Origin: an uncultured Treponema sp.
GTDB lineage: Bacteria; Spirochaetota; Spirochaetia; Treponematales; Treponemataceae
Reading direction: 5' to 3'
Assembly (NCBI RefSeq): GCF_946187725.1
Contig: NZ_CAMHSK010000008.1
Coordinates: 1 to 64,000 of the forward strand
Length of the DNA: 64,000 nucleotides
Position 1 is the stretch's first letter. The number at the start of each line of letters is the position of its first letter. Made by a program: the position numbers and the translations under genes. Shown here one piece after another: positions 17,906 through 52,169 of the stretch. The notes beneath the pieces were generated by a model that ran no database searches, was not told where the DNA came from, and saw only the letters and a list, made by a program, of their open reading frames with translations.

Positions 17906-19756
17906 ATGAAAAAATATTTGTCACTTTGTGTTTTTTTTGTTTTTGGAACGCTTGCTTTTTCGCAGGTTTCGGTCGAAATTAATGATTTTTTCTATAAACA
18001 GGCTCAGATTTGGGAACTTCGCGGATTAACAACAACTTTGCCGCAGATTCGTCCGTATCCCGTAAATGTGATTAAGCGTATTCTGGATGATGTAATTGAA
18101 AACGGCTCTGAAAAGGATGCTGAACTTGCAAAAGGCGAGTATGAGAGGATTTTTCAGAAAAGCTTTTCTCCTTACTTCAAGGCGACTGGCGGCGCAAAAA
18201 TCAGTCATGAAGAAAATGATTTTGATTCTGACAATTCTGTGAACAAAGATTTTCACACCGAAGTAGGAATCGGCGGGGATGTTATTCTTCATGATTTGGT
18301 TTCGGTCGGCTACAAATTCGGAATTTACGCTCAAAAGAACGAATTTTCCGCTCATTCACAGCTTTATACTTCTATGGAAGAAGATTCAATTTTTGATCCA
18401 GTCGATGCAGGTCCTCTGACGGCTTATCTCAACTGGAACATGAATGTTGCCGTAGGAAATCAAAGCGTTTACGGAACAGGCGGCATGAATCGTCTTGGTT
18501 TCGGGCCTTTTATTGCTGACGGTCTGGCATTAAATGATGCGGGTTATCATTCGGCAAACCTCACTTTCAATGCGACTACTGAAAAATGGAGCTATGCTTC
18601 TGCTTACGAGACAATCGGTGCAACCCGTAACATGGGCGCAGAAATTGACAGTTCCTGGCTTGATTCGGGCAAATATCTTGCTTTCCATGCGATAAAATGG
18701 CACGCCTTTGAGAAATTCAACCTCACTTACTACGAGAATATCATTTTCGGACCATACAACAACCTTTCGTACATCACACCAGCACCTTATTATGCGGTTC
18801 AAAATATCGGCGGTGCAAATGATAACCTTCAGATGGGGCTGCTTTTTGAAGTGAAGCCGGTTAAAGGCCTTGATTGGGCAACAGATTTCTTTGCTGATGA
18901 CATTGAGCTTAACGAGGTCTTGAAATTCAACTTTGATACGAAGTTGCGTTTTGGATTCCAGACAGGCATTGTTTATGCCCCGGAAGAGTCGCTTTGTGAA
19001 CGGCTGACTTTCAATTACACTGCGGTCATGCCTTATGTTTATGCTCATTGGCAGTATGATGATTCAAGGACTGGAGCTTTTGACGGAAAAACCTGGAACC
19101 GTCAGAACTACACGAATTCAGGCGTTAATATCGGTTCTGCCCTTGACCCAAATTCTGATAAGATTTCGCTCACTGCTCAGTTTGCACCCGCTAAAAACCT
19201 TAAATTGAATCTGTTCGGAAATTTTATCCGTCATGCTAACGGTGCCGAAGATTTTTCTGATGACGAGGCTGCGGAGTATATGCTTGCCAAAAAAGGCACA
19301 TATGCTACGAACGGCACTTTGTATATGACTCAGATGTTCGCCGATGCAACCAGCTCACATGGAAAGCATGTTGATTCTGCATGGAAAAAACTGGGCTTTA
19401 TGACAAGCGACCACAAGATGTATGTCACACAGCTCGGTCTTAATGCTGAATATTCTTTCGCACGCACAAAATATGGAAAATTCTCTCTTTGTGCTGGATA
19501 CACCTTTGAATATGTCAAAAACAACGGAGTCAACGCACATATTTACAAAGGCGGATTGATTGACGATTTGAAGATAACCACAACCGAAGATGGAAAATAC
19601 AAAATCGGGGGCGGTTCAACTGAATACACATGGGATGAACTGAAACAGAGCAAAGAGGTTCAGACAGCGGTAAATGCGGCCCGTGAAAACTGGGTAAGCC
19701 AGCTTTACGACAGCCTGAATCACTACATCAGCGTGTCGATGAAATACAGTTACTAA
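17906..19756 (+). CDS. Outer-membrane beta-barrel protein (Wzi-like)
   Basis: 616 residues. Signal peptide MKKYLSLCVFFVFGTLAFS, then a helical segment (YKQAQIWELRGL...RPYPVNVIKRIL) typical of the plug or periplasmic part of Wzi-like capsule-assembly barrels, then amphipathic strands to a C-terminal VSMKYSY ending in an aromatic residue, as barrel assembly requires. The start ATG 17906 has CGGAGG nearby (17892-17897). The frame extends upstream into the previous gene, but those codons lack a ribosome site. It sits between two tRNA-modification genes without an obvious functional link. The barrel call is secure; the Wzi relation and any capsule role are tentative. Confidence 0.7.
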   Translation: MKKYLSLCVFFVFGTLAFSQVSVEINDFFYKQAQIWELRGLTTTLPQIRPYPVNVIKRILDDVIENGSEKDAELAKGEYERIFQKSFSPYFKATGGAKISHEENDFDSDNSVNKDFHTEVGIGGDVILHDLVSVGYKFGIYAQKNEFSAHSQLYTSMEEDSIFDPVDAGPLTAYLNWNMNVAVGNQSVYGTGGMNRLGFGPFIADGLALNDAGYHSANLTFNATTEKWSYASAYETIGATRNMGAEIDSSWLDSGKYLAFHAIKWHAFEKFNLTYYENIIFGPYNNLSYITPAPYYAVQNIGGANDNLQMGLLFEVKPVKGLDWATDFFADDIELNEVLKFNFDTKLRFGFQTGIVYAPEESLCERLTFNYTAVMPYVYAHWQYDDSRTGAFDGKTWNRQNYTNSGVNIGSALDPNSDKISLTAQFAPAKNLKLNLFGNFIRHANGAEDFSDDEAAEYMLAKKGTYATNGTLYMTQMFADATSSHGKHVDSAWKKLGFMTSDHKMYVTQLGLNAEYSFARTKYGKFSLCAGYTFEYVKNNGVNAHIYKGGLIDDLKITTTEDGKYKIGGGSTEYTWDELKQSKEVQTAVNAARENWVSQLYDSLNHYISVSMKYSY

Positions 19757-45402: not shown

Positions 45403-45540
45403 TTTTAGCACATTTTACTTAATCTATGCAATATAACAAATTAGACAATTTTTAATTCTGTAGAAAAATCACTTTTTGCCGAAAAGAGAATAAAAAGGGA
45501 ATAGAATTTTTATTTTTTTTAGATTACGCTAGAGGTGGTT

Positions 45541-46782
45541 ATGAAAAAAGAAAGGCACTTGTTCAAAAGGACTGAAACAAAGAACGGCAGGAAAGAAACA
45601 CGGTGGTATTATTGGTTCTATGACGAGAACGGAAAGCAGGTCAAGAAGTCATGCGGTCAGCATGGAAAGCCTTGTTATCTGAAAAAAGAAGCCGAAGCCT
45701 ATTTAGCACTTCTGGAAGAACAGGACAGAAGGGAAGAAGAAGAGTACAAACTAGCCCGGCAAATCCGGCTCTATGATGTCGGCTCTACTTTGTATGACGA
45801 TGATTCGCTTTTTATGAAGCTGAAAGCGGCTCACGGAAAAGCATTGCAACCGCAAACGATAACACAGAAAAAACGGCTGATGAAAATTATTCTTGATGAA
45901 TTCGGCGAGAGAATCCCGGAAACAATCGAAGAAGGTGAGGTTGAGAATTTCTTGATTTCGCTTGAATATAAAAACTCTTACAAGAATACGATTCTAGGCG
46001 TTTTGCGTGATTTGTTCGGAGAGTGTAAAAGATTGCAGCTCGTAAAACATCGGCTTGATGTTGACGGCTTTATCAGAAGTGACAGGCAGAAAAAAGACAT
46101 TCTGACTATGGAGCAGCTTTCTTTATTGTTCCCGGACGATGTAGAAAAACTTACGGAAAATTGGAGCGTAAAGGGAACTGATAAATACATCGGTATTGAC
46201 GGAAAACCTCACGCTTACGGCTTTATGTTCGGTGTTATGTTTAGGCTTATGGCAAGTACAGGATTAAGACCGGGCGAAGCAAGGGCAATCTGCATAGACC
46301 AGATACAGGACAGCGGGCTTTTTATAAATCGCATGATTGACAGTTACGATGTCGAAAGACCTTATTTGAAAAAAGGAAGCATTGAAAACCCAAAACAAAG
46401 AACCGTTTTATTGCCGTCAAAAATGGCGGAATTGCTGAATGAGTATCTTGAAGTAAGACCACCGTGCAAACTGAATTACATTTTTTCAAAAAACGGAAGT
46501 TTTATTTCACAAGGTTTGATTGATTCAAGGTTTAAGAATTGCCTTGTGAAGCTGGGAATTTATGACGCTTCAAAGGTCATAACACCACACTCATTGAGAT
46601 TCACATACAACACTTACACGGTGAATTCTAACCTCATTCCGGCGGAAGTTTTGCGGAAAATGATAGGTCATAACTCGCAGATTATGACGGATTACTACAC
46701 AAGACCAGACCTTGAGGCACAGTTGCAGGGCTTGCAGCCGTACCAAAAAAATGTTGATGAAATCTGGAACAAAGTGAAATAA
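45541..46782 (+). CDS. Phage tyrosine recombinase (integrase)
   Basis: 413 residues. The N-terminal 65 residues form an arm-type DNA-binding domain (WYYWFYDENGKQVKKSC). A SAM-like core-binding domain follows (about 85-190). The catalytic domain has the first arginine in TGLRPGEARAI, the HSLR box (HxxR) near residue 360, the histidine in IGHNSQIM and the nucleophilic tyrosine in DYYTRPD (about 393). The start ATG 45541 has GAGG upstream; the GTG two codons earlier lies in that site. It integrates and, with a partner, excises the prophage. A terminator follows. Confidence 0.93.
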   Translation: MKKERHLFKRTETKNGRKETRWYYWFYDENGKQVKKSCGQHGKPCYLKKEAEAYLALLEEQDRREEEEYKLARQIRLYDVGSTLYDDDSLFMKLKAAHGKALQPQTITQKKRLMKIILDEFGERIPETIEEGEVENFLISLEYKNSYKNTILGVLRDLFGECKRLQLVKHRLDVDGFIRSDRQKKDILTMEQLSLLFPDDVEKLTENWSVKGTDKYIGIDGKPHAYGFMFGVMFRLMASTGLRPGEARAICIDQIQDSGLFINRMIDSYDVERPYLKKGSIENPKQRTVLLPSKMAELLNEYLEVRPPCKLNYIFSKNGSFISQGLIDSRFKNCLVKLGIYDASKVITPHSLRFTYNTYTVNSNLIPAEVLRKMIGHNSQIMTDYYTRPDLEAQLQGLQPYQKNVDEIWNKVK

Positions 46783-47128: not shown

Positions 47129-47767
47129 TCAGTCGATGTGTTTCAAGACATAGTGAACTCTTCCGACAATTCCTAAACACTGTGAATCCTGTGGTTCTTC
47201 TTTTGTTGGATAAAGTGGATTGTCTGACTTGATGATGAACTTCCCGGAATCTTTATAAACTCGTTTTACATAACCGTCACCGTCACGCATTATTGCGTAA
47301 AGCCCTTCGCCGCTATAACCGCATGAATCGCAAAGCACCAAGTCACCGCGCCTTAAAGTGGGTTCCATGCTGTCACCGTCAACATAAAGCAAAGCTAAGT
47401 TTTCGCCGAATTGTTTTAAGTATCGTGGCACTTCCATGTAGCCGATTACTTGCGGCTCTTCCTGTAGGTACTGACCGTACCCGGCTGAAAGTTTTTGATT
47501 AAGTACAGGCACAAAGAATTTATCTGTGTCGGAATTTCTGACAACTCGCCTTTCGTTTTCTTCCAGACCGTCAATCAAAAAATTAAAAGATACGCCAAAG
47601 ATTTCAGAGAGCTTTTTTAGTTCCGCAATGTTCGGCAGGCTGTTTCTCTGAATTTTGATTTCAAGATTACGCGCTCCATAGCCCAATTTTTCAGACAATT
47701 CTCTTTGAGTTATTCCGTTGCTTTTGCAGAGATTTTGTATTCTTTCCCAGAATGAAGTTATTTCCAT
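47129..47767 (-). CDS. Phage repressor with HTH and S24 (LexA-like) domain
   Basis: 212 residues. The first 65 form an XRE-type HTH (ITQRELSEKLGYGARNLEIKIQ). The C-terminal S24 peptidase domain has the cleavage-site context LSAGYGQ, the catalytic serine in VDGDSMEPTL and the lysine in GDGYVKRVY. So it should be a CI-like repressor that self-cleaves with RecA help in the SOS response. ATG 47767 is chosen because it begins just before the HTH; upstream in-frame starts would overlap the promoter. It faces the rightward early genes. Operator-like repeats lie directly upstream. Confidence 0.92.
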   Translation of the reverse strand: MEITSFWERIQNLCKSNGITQRELSEKLGYGARNLEIKIQRNSLPNIAELKKLSEIFGVSFNFLIDGLEENERRVVRNSDTDKFFVPVLNQKLSAGYGQYLQEEPQVIGYMEVPRYLKQFGENLALLYVDGDSMEPTLRRGDLVLCDSCGYSGEGLYAIMRDGDGYVKRVYKDSGKFIIKSDNPLYPTKEEPQDSQCLGIVGRVHYVLKHID

Positions 47768-47837
47768 GCTCAAATTTTCGGCAGAAAACATCAAAAAAAG
47801 CACTGTTTTTTAAGAAATGTTGTGAAAAAGCACAAAA

Positions 47838-47882
47838 AGGTGTAAAAACTTATTGACTTTAAAATCAAACAGGTGTAAAAAC
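47838..47882. promoter_or_regulatory. Operator-like repeats and rightward early promoter
   Basis: AGGTGTAAAAAC occurs at 47838-47849 and 47871-47882, exactly 33 bp apart. Between them, TTGACT (47853-47858) with TAAAAA (47876-47881) forms a weak rightward promoter whose -10 is covered by the second copy. Probable target of the S24 repressor. Confidence 0.5.
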
Positions 47883-47931
47883 AGAATCAAGACAACATCA
47901 AAATGATGTAACGACAGAGCCATTAACATTA

Positions 47932-48013
47932 CAGCGCGTTGTTAATTGCTTTGGCAATTTGGGGAAACCCGGAAAGCCTGTTGGTTTGCGCTGAAACTGA
48001 CAGGCTTTTTTTT
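47932..48013 (+). ncRNA. Structured leader with intrinsic terminator before the first early gene
   Basis: Visible elements: outer arms CAGCGC (47932-47937) and GCGCTG (47988-47993); hairpin AATTGC-TTTG-GCAATT (47944-47959); GGG-GAAA-CCC with a GNRA loop (47961-47970); terminator stem AAAGCCTGT (47973-47981)/ACAGGCTTT (48000-48008) plus T run to 48013. The outer stem and the terminator stem cross, so they are alternatives or a pseudoknot. It may attenuate or antiterminate the early transcript. No known RNA family is recognised. Confidence 0.5.
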
Positions 48014-48033
48014 GTTGCAGGGGGATTGAAGGT

Positions 48034-48246
48034 ATGACAGACGCTAGAAAAGATGCGGTGTTGGCACTGACCGAGCAGATTTTGCGTGAAGCTGATGACG
48101 AGTTTAAGGGCATGGCTATTCATAAGGTCGGGGATATGTACGACAGCGTAGATATTTTCAAAGGCGTGGGCAAGATAAATGTCCGTATTGCCGGAGATAG
48201 CCCTCTTGCAATCTTCAAGGATATAGCAAGGGCGATACCTTGTTAA
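48034..48246 (+). CDS. Small early phage protein, unknown
   Basis: 70 residues with GAAGG 5-8 nt before the ATG. The sequence is acidic at first (ILREADDEFKG) and has a strand-rich second half (INVRIAGDSPLAIFKDI). No cysteine motif, HTH or membrane segment is seen. It is the first frame of the rightward early transcript, between a structured leader and the tRNA-like element, a place where Cro-like or moron proteins are often encoded, but no such similarity is recognised. Confidence 0.5.
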   Translation: MTDARKDAVLALTEQILREADDEFKGMAIHKVGDMYDSVDIFKGVGKINVRIAGDSPLAIFKDIARAIPC

Positions 48247-48253
48247 AAATATG

Positions 48254-48350
48254 GCGCGTGTAAGCCGCTAACGGTTAAGCGGTGTATGTTCTTTTTTCAA
48301 AAGTTTTTCCGAAAGTAAATAACTTGCAGGTTCAAATCCTGTCACGCGCA
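48254..48350 (+). other. tRNA-like element lacking a recognisable anticodon arm
   Basis: The 97-nt element has a perfect 7-bp acceptor stem GCGCGTG/CACGCGC, a D-arm-like hairpin GCCGC-TAACGGTTAA-GCGGT, and a canonical T-arm GCAGG-TTCAAAT-CCTGT directly joined to the 3' acceptor strand and a discriminator A. The 42 nt between (48284-48325) do not form a normal 5-bp/7-nt anticodon arm. No CCA is encoded. It is either a degenerate phage tRNA or a tRNA mimic. tRNA calling programs may or may not score it. Confidence 0.5.
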
Positions 48351-48619: not shown

Positions 48620-49420
48620 ATGACCAACGAGAACATTTTAGAGAACTTGAAAAAACTGTATCAGTGCAAGACCGAATTCACGGTAACGCAGACAGGAAAG
48701 CAGAGCAAAAAAGTAAACGGATTTTATAAGCCGCTGACACATGAAATATTCTTGCATAACAAAAACTTCAAATCCGACAACGCCGTAATGTTCACGGCGA
48801 TTCATGAGCTTACGCACCATATCCAGAATGAAAACGGCGTAAAAGCTGCAAGAGCGCACAACAACGCTTTTTGGAGTACATTCTACAACCTTCTTGATGA
48901 AGCTGAAAGAATCGGCATTTATTCACGCGAACGAAGCGAAAGCGTAGCGGCAAAAACAAAAGAACTTACAGACATTCAAAAACAGATTATCGAATTGCAG
49001 AAAAAACAGGGAAAACTTCTTGCCGAACTTCACAGGGAATGTGAAGAGCAGGGCGACAGATACGAAGATGTACTTGAACATGATTTGCAGATTTCCAGAA
49101 ACAAGGCAAAAGAATTACAGAAACAGGCTTATTTGACTTCTGATGTTTCTGATGAAATGTCAAAGGCAATCAATTCAGCAAAAGACGCAATGATGAAAAA
49201 CGCTGCAATACAGGCGGCTGACAGCGGGGCAACCGTTGAGCAGGTAAAGGCGATTGCAAAAGACACGGCGAAAAAAACTAAGCCTGCAGACGATGGACTT
49301 GATTCACCTTCAAGCCTTATGCGCGAAAAGAAGCGTATTGAAAAAACAATCGAGCAGTTACAAGACAGACTTGTAAACATTGACGAACAGCTTATAAGCA
49401 TGGGGGTAGATGATGATTGA
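48620..49420 (+). CDS. Phage zinc-metallopeptidase-like protein with coiled coil
   Basis: 266 residues. An HExxH motif (HELTHHIQNENG, about residue 57) follows a strand-helix region (THEIFLHNKNF, AVMFTAIHEL), like short metallopeptidase domains of the IrrE/ImmA or SprT type. A third zinc ligand is not clear. From about 110 to 265 the protein is a charged coiled coil, ending in a second coiled segment (MREKKRIEKTIEQLQDRL). CAGGAG precedes the ATG. The next gene overlaps it by 11 nt. A role in repressor or antirepressor proteolysis is possible but speculative. Confidence 0.65.
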   Translation: MTNENILENLKKLYQCKTEFTVTQTGKQSKKVNGFYKPLTHEIFLHNKNFKSDNAVMFTAIHELTHHIQNENGVKAARAHNNAFWSTFYNLLDEAERIGIYSRERSESVAAKTKELTDIQKQIIELQKKQGKLLAELHRECEEQGDRYEDVLEHDLQISRNKAKELQKQAYLTSDVSDEMSKAINSAKDAMMKNAAIQAADSGATVEQVKAIAKDTAKKTKPADDGLDSPSSLMREKKRIEKTIEQLQDRLVNIDEQLISMGVDDD

Positions 49421-51070: not shown

Positions 51071-51219
51071 AATCGGATTGTTAATCCGTTTAGGCATTTC
51101 AACAATATTTTTCGGGTACATTGTTGAACTGCTTAGTTCATAAGCCTTGTGGCTTTGCACTACCCGAACATTCATGTGTCGTAGCGTGAATGAGTGCATA
51201 AGCTACAGGGCTTTTTTAT
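51071..51219 (+). ncRNA. Structured leader RNA with three-way junction and terminator-like end
   Basis: Hairpin CGGATT-GTT-AATCCG (51074-51088). Then a three-way junction: P1 TTCGGGTA (51111-51118)/TACCCGAA (51161-51168); P2 GAACT-gctt-AGTTC (51126-51139); P3 AAGCC-ttgt-GGCTT (51142-51155). Next, competing short stems (ATTCA/TGAAT; GTAGC 51181-51185/GCTAC 51202-51206; AAGC/GCTT) end in six T residues (51212-51217). The whole lies in the untranslated leader of the antirepressor gene. The layout suggests a cis-acting RNA with a termination/antitermination choice. No named RNA family is recognised. Confidence 0.6.
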
Positions 51220-51281
51220 TTCAAGCGGTTAGGGTGTCAGATTCTTGCCGGAACTTCACCCAAAACCGCAGGGAGTTACTA

Positions 51282-52169
51282 ATGCAGAACTCACTTAGTT
51301 TGTCGGCTGAAAACGGTTTGACTTTAGCACAAAATCAGAAAGTCCAGATTGTAAGACAGGAAAATGTCTTAGGACAGGAATTCACGGTTTACGGAGATTT
51401 TGAAAATCCGCTTTTCCTTGCGAAAGATGTAGCAGCATGGATTGATTATGCTAAAACTTCACAAGGTTTTTATGATGTGTCAAATATGCTGAAAAGTGTA
51501 GATGATGATGAAAAAATTAAGATTTTTACTACTACGAACAATCTTCGTAGTGGTTGTGAACAATGGTTTTTGACTGAAAACGGCTTGTATGAAGTTCTTA
51601 TGTTGTCAAGAAAACCTATCGCAAAGGATTTCAAGAAAGAAGTAAAAAGAATCCTTCACGAAATAAGAACTACAGGCGGCTATACAGTGCCTAGAAGCTA
51701 TGCGGAAGCATTGCAGATTGCCGCAGACCAAGCAAAAAGAATCGAAGAGCAGAACAAACAGATTGAAGTTATGAAACCTTCTGCTACATCTTGGGAAACT
51801 TACGCCGGAAACATGGAGCATAGGAATTCCGAAAAGTCATTCCGGGAAGTTGCAAAACTCTTGAATCTGAATCCGCAGAATTGCCTTACAAATTGGTGTG
51901 AGAAAAACGGCTACATCTACAGGAACAAGGGCGTTTACACGGCAAGTCAGAAAGCAATCACAAAGGGAATTCTTGTAAACAGAATCGTAAACGCTGAAAA
52001 CGGTTGGAGCGGCGAACAGTGCAAAATTACCGCTTACGGCATGAGGTTCTTTTCTGAAATGAAAGCGCAGGGCGAATTCGGTTATTGCGTTCTCACAGAC
52101 AAGCCAGAGGACGGAAGCAAAAGACCTGCAAGACCTTCTAGGGATTACCGCAAGCGAGGCGATAAATGA
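51282..52169 (+). CDS. Phage antirepressor (BRO-N plus KilAC)
   Basis: 295 residues. The N-terminal half is a BRO-N domain (EFTVYGDFENPLFLAKDVAAWI, WFLTENGLYEVLMLSRKPIAKDFKKEVKRILHEIRTTGGY). A coiled segment follows (about 150-175), then a KilAC-type C-terminal domain (SFREVAKLLNLNP, WCEKNGYIYR, ITAYGMRFFSE). Such antirepressors inactivate phage repressors or bind DNA during induction. ATG 51282 has AGGGAG upstream; the leader RNA lies before it. It overlaps the next gene by 4 nt. Confidence 0.92.
   Translation: MQNSLSLSAENGLTLAQNQKVQIVRQENVLGQEFTVYGDFENPLFLAKDVAAWIDYAKTSQGFYDVSNMLKSVDDDEKIKIFTTTNNLRSGCEQWFLTENGLYEVLMLSRKPIAKDFKKEVKRILHEIRTTGGYTVPRSYAEALQIAADQAKRIEEQNKQIEVMKPSATSWETYAGNMEHRNSEKSFREVAKLLNLNPQNCLTNWCEKNGYIYRNKGVYTASQKAITKGILVNRIVNAENGWSGEQCKITAYGMRFFSEMKAQGEFGYCVLTDKPEDGSKRPARPSRDYRKRGDK

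Follow-up and report, generated by a model that had tools for sequence, protein, structure and literature searches.

A tRNA-like RNA element without an anticodon arm among the early genes of a Treponema prophage

The early operon and the architecture of the element

We analysed a 64,000-nt stretch of DNA from an uncultured Treponema sp. (hereafter the window), which carries a prophage with an integrase gene, a divergent repressor gene and a rightward run of early genes that also includes a YqaJ nuclease and RecT (Table 1). A 97-nt tRNA-like RNA element sits in this early operon between a 70-residue ORF and a gene for a metallopeptidase-like protein, in agreement with a preliminary description of the sequence that had placed it in the early region. 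The element starts 7 nt past the stop codon of the upstream ORF, within an operon-like run of genes on the same strand, and neither a promoter nor a terminator of its own was identified. The upstream ORF belongs to no family and has no phage homologue. Its structure model, a helix followed by three strands and a second helix, is poor (pLDDT 58.7) and matched nothing in the PDB at E 0.001, and we assign the ORF no function on its basis.

The first early gene is preceded by a structured leader (47804-48033) ending in a strong terminator-like hairpin, and a similar arrangement precedes other first genes in relatives (loci L041-L044, which carry homologues of the peptidase gene). This suggests control by attenuation or antitermination.

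Table 1. Features of the prophage early region and of the tRNA-like element (window coordinates)
Feature	Position	Strand	Remarks
Tyrosine integrase	45535-46782	+	
CI-like repressor with S24 peptidase domain	47129-47803	-	divergent
Intrinsic-terminator-like hairpin	47971-48010	+	17 pairs; ahead of the first ORF of the rightward early operon
70-aa ORF (ORF70)	48034-48246	+	directly upstream of the element; no family
tRNA-like RNA element	48254-48350	+	97 nt
Acceptor stem, 5' strand	48254-48260	+	GCGCGTG; two-sided change in L003/L142
D arm	48265-48282	+	CCGCT-AACGGTTA-AGCGG; stem 48265-48269/48278-48282, 5 bp
U-rich middle	48284-48325	+	42 nt, no anticodon arm
10-codon ATG frame	48286-48318	+	MFFFQKFFRK, Phe-rich; inside the middle, in all copies
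T arm	48326-48342	+	GCAGG-TTCAAAT-CCTGT; 5 bp, canonical loop
Acceptor stem, 3' strand, and discriminator	48343-48350	+	CACGCGC plus A (48350); no encoded CCA
Metallopeptidase-like protein	48620-49420	+	downstream of the element; weak DUF6782, under the Pfam cut-off
BRO/KilAC antirepressor gene	51147-52169		among the rightward early genes

The preliminary description had reported near-perfect acceptor, D-like and T arms around a 42-nt middle without a normal anticodon arm, and both the coordinates and the pairing were borne out. All seven acceptor pairs (48254-48260 with 48343-48349) are Watson-Crick, and with the T arm they form a continuous 12-bp helix, as in elements of the RNase P/RNase Z type. 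The D stem exceeds the usual 4 bp, a departure that the earlier account did not mention; a sixth D-arm pair (G-T, 48264/48283) is possible and is lost in one copy (L002). Comparison by eye with the tRNA consensus found the elbow positions U8, A9, A14, R15 (A15, with U48), G18, G19, A21, Y48, G53-C61, T54, T55, C56, R57 (A57), A58, Y60 (T60) and R73 (A73) all present. The predicted fold of the element shows these three arms (z = -3.09; 2 of 200 shuffles folded equally well). Measured against a canonical elongator tRNA, the element has the 7-bp acceptor stem, the 5-bp T arm with a TTCRANY loop and a D arm with GG, and lacks the 5-bp anticodon stem, the 7-nt loop and a fixed anticodon. CCA directly after the discriminator is encoded in none of the 40 distinct host tRNA 3' ends, a single automatic match (tRNA-His) having been dismissed by eye. 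The missing CCA is therefore normal for this host, and the 3' end of the element resembles those of host tRNA genes.

The 42-nt middle does not allow an arm with a 5-bp stem and 7-nt loop. What comes closest is a 3-bp CTT/AAG stem flanking TTTTCAA, with a putative anticodon of TTC or TCC depending on the copy. A weak, bulged AAGTT../..AACTT hairpin is possible at 48301-48325; it is unbulged in L003 and L142, where a single deletion leaves an 8-bp hairpin adjoining the T arm. When folded with one flanking base, the middle is outdone by most shuffled versions of itself, 468 of 500 being at least as stable. It is filled by the MFFFQKFFRK frame, which is intact in all copies: the sole difference within the frame is synonymous, and the indel among copies falls after the stop codon. 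A closed frame of that length arose in 0.16% of 5000 shuffled middles, a comparison chosen post hoc, and no good ribosome-binding site for the frame was seen.

Detection, copies and relatives

Neither of the searches that the preliminary description had proposed, tRNA prediction and covariance models, called the element. ARAGORN found no gene in the window, neither tRNA nor tmRNA at the element, and none of 4227 Rfam families, tmRNA included, matched it at the gathering threshold. The best sub-threshold match in the tRNA clan was to tRNA-Sec (26.9 bits against a cut-off of 47), and on this score a tRNA-Sec identity was rejected. The long D stem and the length near 97 nt are reminiscent of tRNA-Sec, but the element has a 7-bp acceptor and no anticodon arm. 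A search of the genus with the tRNA-Sec model (RF01852) gave a match above the cut-off in 2 of 79 genomes.

A scan for tRNA shape, defined as a 7-bp acceptor stem joined to a canonical T arm, found one place in the window, the element itself. The same scan of 20 mononucleotide shuffles, one strand each (1.28 Mb), gave no match. With a D arm as a further criterion, 214 DNA records (1,168 kb, alignment rows included) yielded 130 distinct tRNA-shaped places: 120 ARAGORN tRNAs, 7 variants or duplicate rows of the element, and 3 other phage sequences of 70-74 nt. Since the arms and elbow positions go far beyond chance, and the places found by the scan are almost all tRNAs, the element is tRNA-derived.

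Six copies with five distinct sequences, about 98% alike, come from three Treponema genomes (the one analysed here and its genus-mates L002 and L003) and three IMG/VR contigs; the element and the 70-residue ORF both occur in 3 of 200 genomes of the genus, again counting its own. The anticodon arm is absent from all six copies, and all 17 arm pairs are kept over the five distinct sequences. The acceptor pair G5-C is replaced by A-U through a two-sided change in L003, the sequence of which is the same as that of L142. When six random substitutions were placed in simulation, spread over the copies as observed, all pairs were kept in 21% of draws; pairs kept plus a two-sided change arose in 0.24%, by what is a simple and post hoc test. 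A shuffle control on the alignment alone was not significant (98 of 500). The other variable columns are 48272 (D loop), 48283 (outer D-stem wobble position), 48297 and 48320 (middle) and 48336 (T-loop position 59). Within the element 7 of 97 columns vary, compared with 4 of 213 for the ORF upstream and 36 of 269 for the stretch that follows, such that the element is no less variable than its neighbours taken together. Ends and middle are kept at about an equal level, contrary to the expectation that the ends would be conserved and the middle not. Because the copies are about 98% alike, conservation proves little here.

Peptidase homologues are present in 254 of 274 family genomes, and 27 from other phages were fetched (L041-L067). 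Upstream of the 17 for which this region was read (L041-L057) there is no ARAGORN tRNA and no T-arm motif. By eye, a leader with a terminator-like hairpin lies directly before the peptidase gene in L042-L044, and another ORF intervenes in L041. As the slot in relatives is empty or holds another ORF, the 70-residue ORF and the element appear to make up a module that occupies a variable slot. A normal tRNA at this spot in related phages, which would have indicated decay, was looked for and not found among the relatives; in the 274 family genomes the 3' end of the element had three matches, each of them the element.

The element was found in one phage lineage only. Of 25 loci with YqaJ relatives in IMG/VR, 3 contain it, all belonging to this lineage. 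Its 3' end, used as a pattern in IMG/VR, recovered 11 stretches: 3 are the element, 7 coincide with ARAGORN tRNAs and one (L189) is a lone 3' tRNA end. Low-scoring covariance matches in the genus were listed at 26 places, spread over 25 of 200 genomes, 3 of them being the element; 20 of the remaining 23 were inspected, of which 2 are tRNA-Arg(tcg) and 18 carry no tRNA call. Across the phylum (392 genomes, searched with filters that lose some weak matches), three places beyond its own copy reach E 0.001, all of them ordinary tRNAs. No host tRNA among 39 distinct ARAGORN sequences matches the whole element by eye.

Some other matches were rejected. L004 (80% over 56 columns) falls within a protein-coding stretch and was judged by eye to match by chance; in L141 (Deltaproteobacteria) neither an acceptor nor a T arm was seen by eye near the matching part, and the model search gave no match; and the match in Enterococcus phage phiFL2A lies at an ARAGORN tRNA-Arg.

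A processed tRNA-like RNA as the favoured reading

A 12-bp acceptor-T helix and an intact elbow are the features by which bacterial RNase P and 3'-processing enzymes recognise their substrates. Because the element retains this helix and elbow, and because RNase P is tolerant of truncation, we propose that the element, derived from a tRNA, is recognised by RNase P, by 3'-processing enzymes and by the CCA-adding enzyme, serving as a processing or stability element or a small RNA of the early transcript rather than as a decoding tRNA (probability about 0.42). Bacterial RNase P tolerates large tRNA truncations and also cuts non-tRNA substrates, including phage regulatory RNAs (reviewed in PMC4919922). 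The preliminary description had suggested a tRNA mimic that recruits tRNA-handling proteins, and this idea fits, in that the parts contacted by RNase P, 3'-processing enzymes, the CCA-adding enzyme and EF-Tu are intact and the acceptor change is compensated.

On the proposed mechanism, the element would fold into a tRNA-like L within the early transcript. Host RNase P would cut its 5' end at 48253/48254, and host 3' processing and the CCA-adding enzyme would act on its 3' end. Processing would thereby release a stable RNA some 97-100 nt long and separate the short upstream cistron from the downstream genes, and the open U-rich middle may either link the arms passively or be the active portion of a small RNA. 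Decoding appears to have been lost and the acceptor/T/D elbow body kept; processing, release and any effect are what we infer from the sequence.

Parallels are found among tRNA-like elements processed by RNase P, namely the plant mitochondrial t-element, mascRNA and the ends of tmRNA, as given in PMC4919922. In each, tRNA-shaped ends lie in a longer transcript as a presumed processing signal, as in the present case, although the element is unrelated to them in sequence and setting, and its own processing is only predicted. With phage-encoded tRNA genes it has in common the acceptor, T arm, D loop and elbow positions, but without an anticodon arm it could not decode and ARAGORN does not call it. 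No report of the element or of an anticodon-less phage tRNA was found in the open-licence PMC literature.

If it is made and processed, the element would pass through the tRNA maturation pathway as a phage RNA with no role in translation. It would then offer a clean natural experiment on the tRNA-binding proteins that a phage must engage early, and a warning that tRNA finders demanding an anticodon arm miss such phage genes.

Alternative explanations

The simplest history is that of decay: an ordinary phage tRNA, perhaps of class II, had its anticodon arm recently replaced or scrambled, the near-perfect ends meaning that little time has elapsed. With copies so alike, a recently broken tRNA is nearly as likely as a processed element. 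In total length and in the hairpin beside its T arm, the element is similar to a class II tRNA, six copies about 98% alike make conservation a weak argument, and the simulated chance of keeping all pairs (about 0.21) is not small. Against decay, the compensated acceptor change occurred in a copy already without an anticodon arm, every checked elbow position is intact, and related prophages have no normal tRNA at the spot, the only matches to the 3' end in the family (3/274) being the element.

We consider it unlikely that the element serves as a decoy, or competes, for proteins binding to the elbow or CCA end of tRNA, such as CCA-end modifying toxins or other tRNA-targeting defences, from an accessory slot of the early operon. 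Its accessory early position is consistent with such a role, given that in relatives the slot between leader or terminator and peptidase gene is empty or taken by another ORF (by eye). A phage tRNA has also been described to help against the tRNA-cleaving Septu system, and the authors raise a possible decoy role (PMC13096335). These and other known cases employ whole tRNAs, whereas the element is a body without an anticodon arm in which nucleases that cleave the anticodon or variable loop would find no target. The preliminary description had suggested a decoy for tRNA-cleaving defence nucleases; for anticodon nucleases this is disfavoured because the target loop is missing.

Somewhat less likely again is an antisense or regulatory RNA with tRNA-like ends, in which the unstructured, U-rich middle would pair with phage mRNAs. 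The model here is the C4 antisense RNA of phages P1 and P7, which is reportedly processed by RNase P and controls an antirepressor. Both would be RNAs of a phage regulatory region and possible RNase P substrates in a phage that encodes an antirepressor, the middle is more open than its shuffles, and purine-rich ribosome-binding sites could pair with it. However, the best predicted target in the prophage was no better than those of shuffled middles (7 of 60 were equally good), predicted pairing with the start of the antirepressor gene is not strong (-9.9 kcal/mol), and no Rfam family matches, such that neither a significant target nor C4-like complementarity to the antirepressor start was found.

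An attachment-site remnant, that is, a tRNA fragment from an element integrating into a tRNA gene, is improbable. Fragments left by integration are common (PMC9897764), and the T arm resembles tRNA-Arg(tcg) of the Treponema group. Yet both acceptor strands and the D arm are present, the element is located within the prophage, some 1.5 kb past the integrase gene, and no host tRNA matches the whole, a full host copy not having been found.

Least probable of all is a miniature tmRNA-like or minigene RNA, processed as a tRNA and expressed early, which would carry the MFFFQKFFRK frame, occupy tRNA-handling proteins or ribosomes and represent a new class of phage RNA: a tRNA-like domain without an anticodon arm around a short internal reading frame (by chance or not) recalls tmRNA, but the element is 97 nt rather than several hundred, its D stem is strong, and in place of G3-U70, the defining alanine identity pair of tmRNA, the third acceptor pair is G-C in all copies.

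Two further tRNA-shaped sequences were noted in other records. On an IMG/VR contig (L169), a 73-nt sequence at 18218-18290 has tRNA shape and is uncalled by ARAGORN. In Enterococcus phage phiFL2A (L199), a 52-nt tRNA-like sequence without an anticodon arm was recognised by eye at 1288-1339, with an acceptor stem GTCACTG/CAGTGAC and a TGCAAAT T loop; it is unannotated, lies between ArpU and terminase, and was not among the places from the tRNA-shape scan. This region may be a GOLLD-type RNA.
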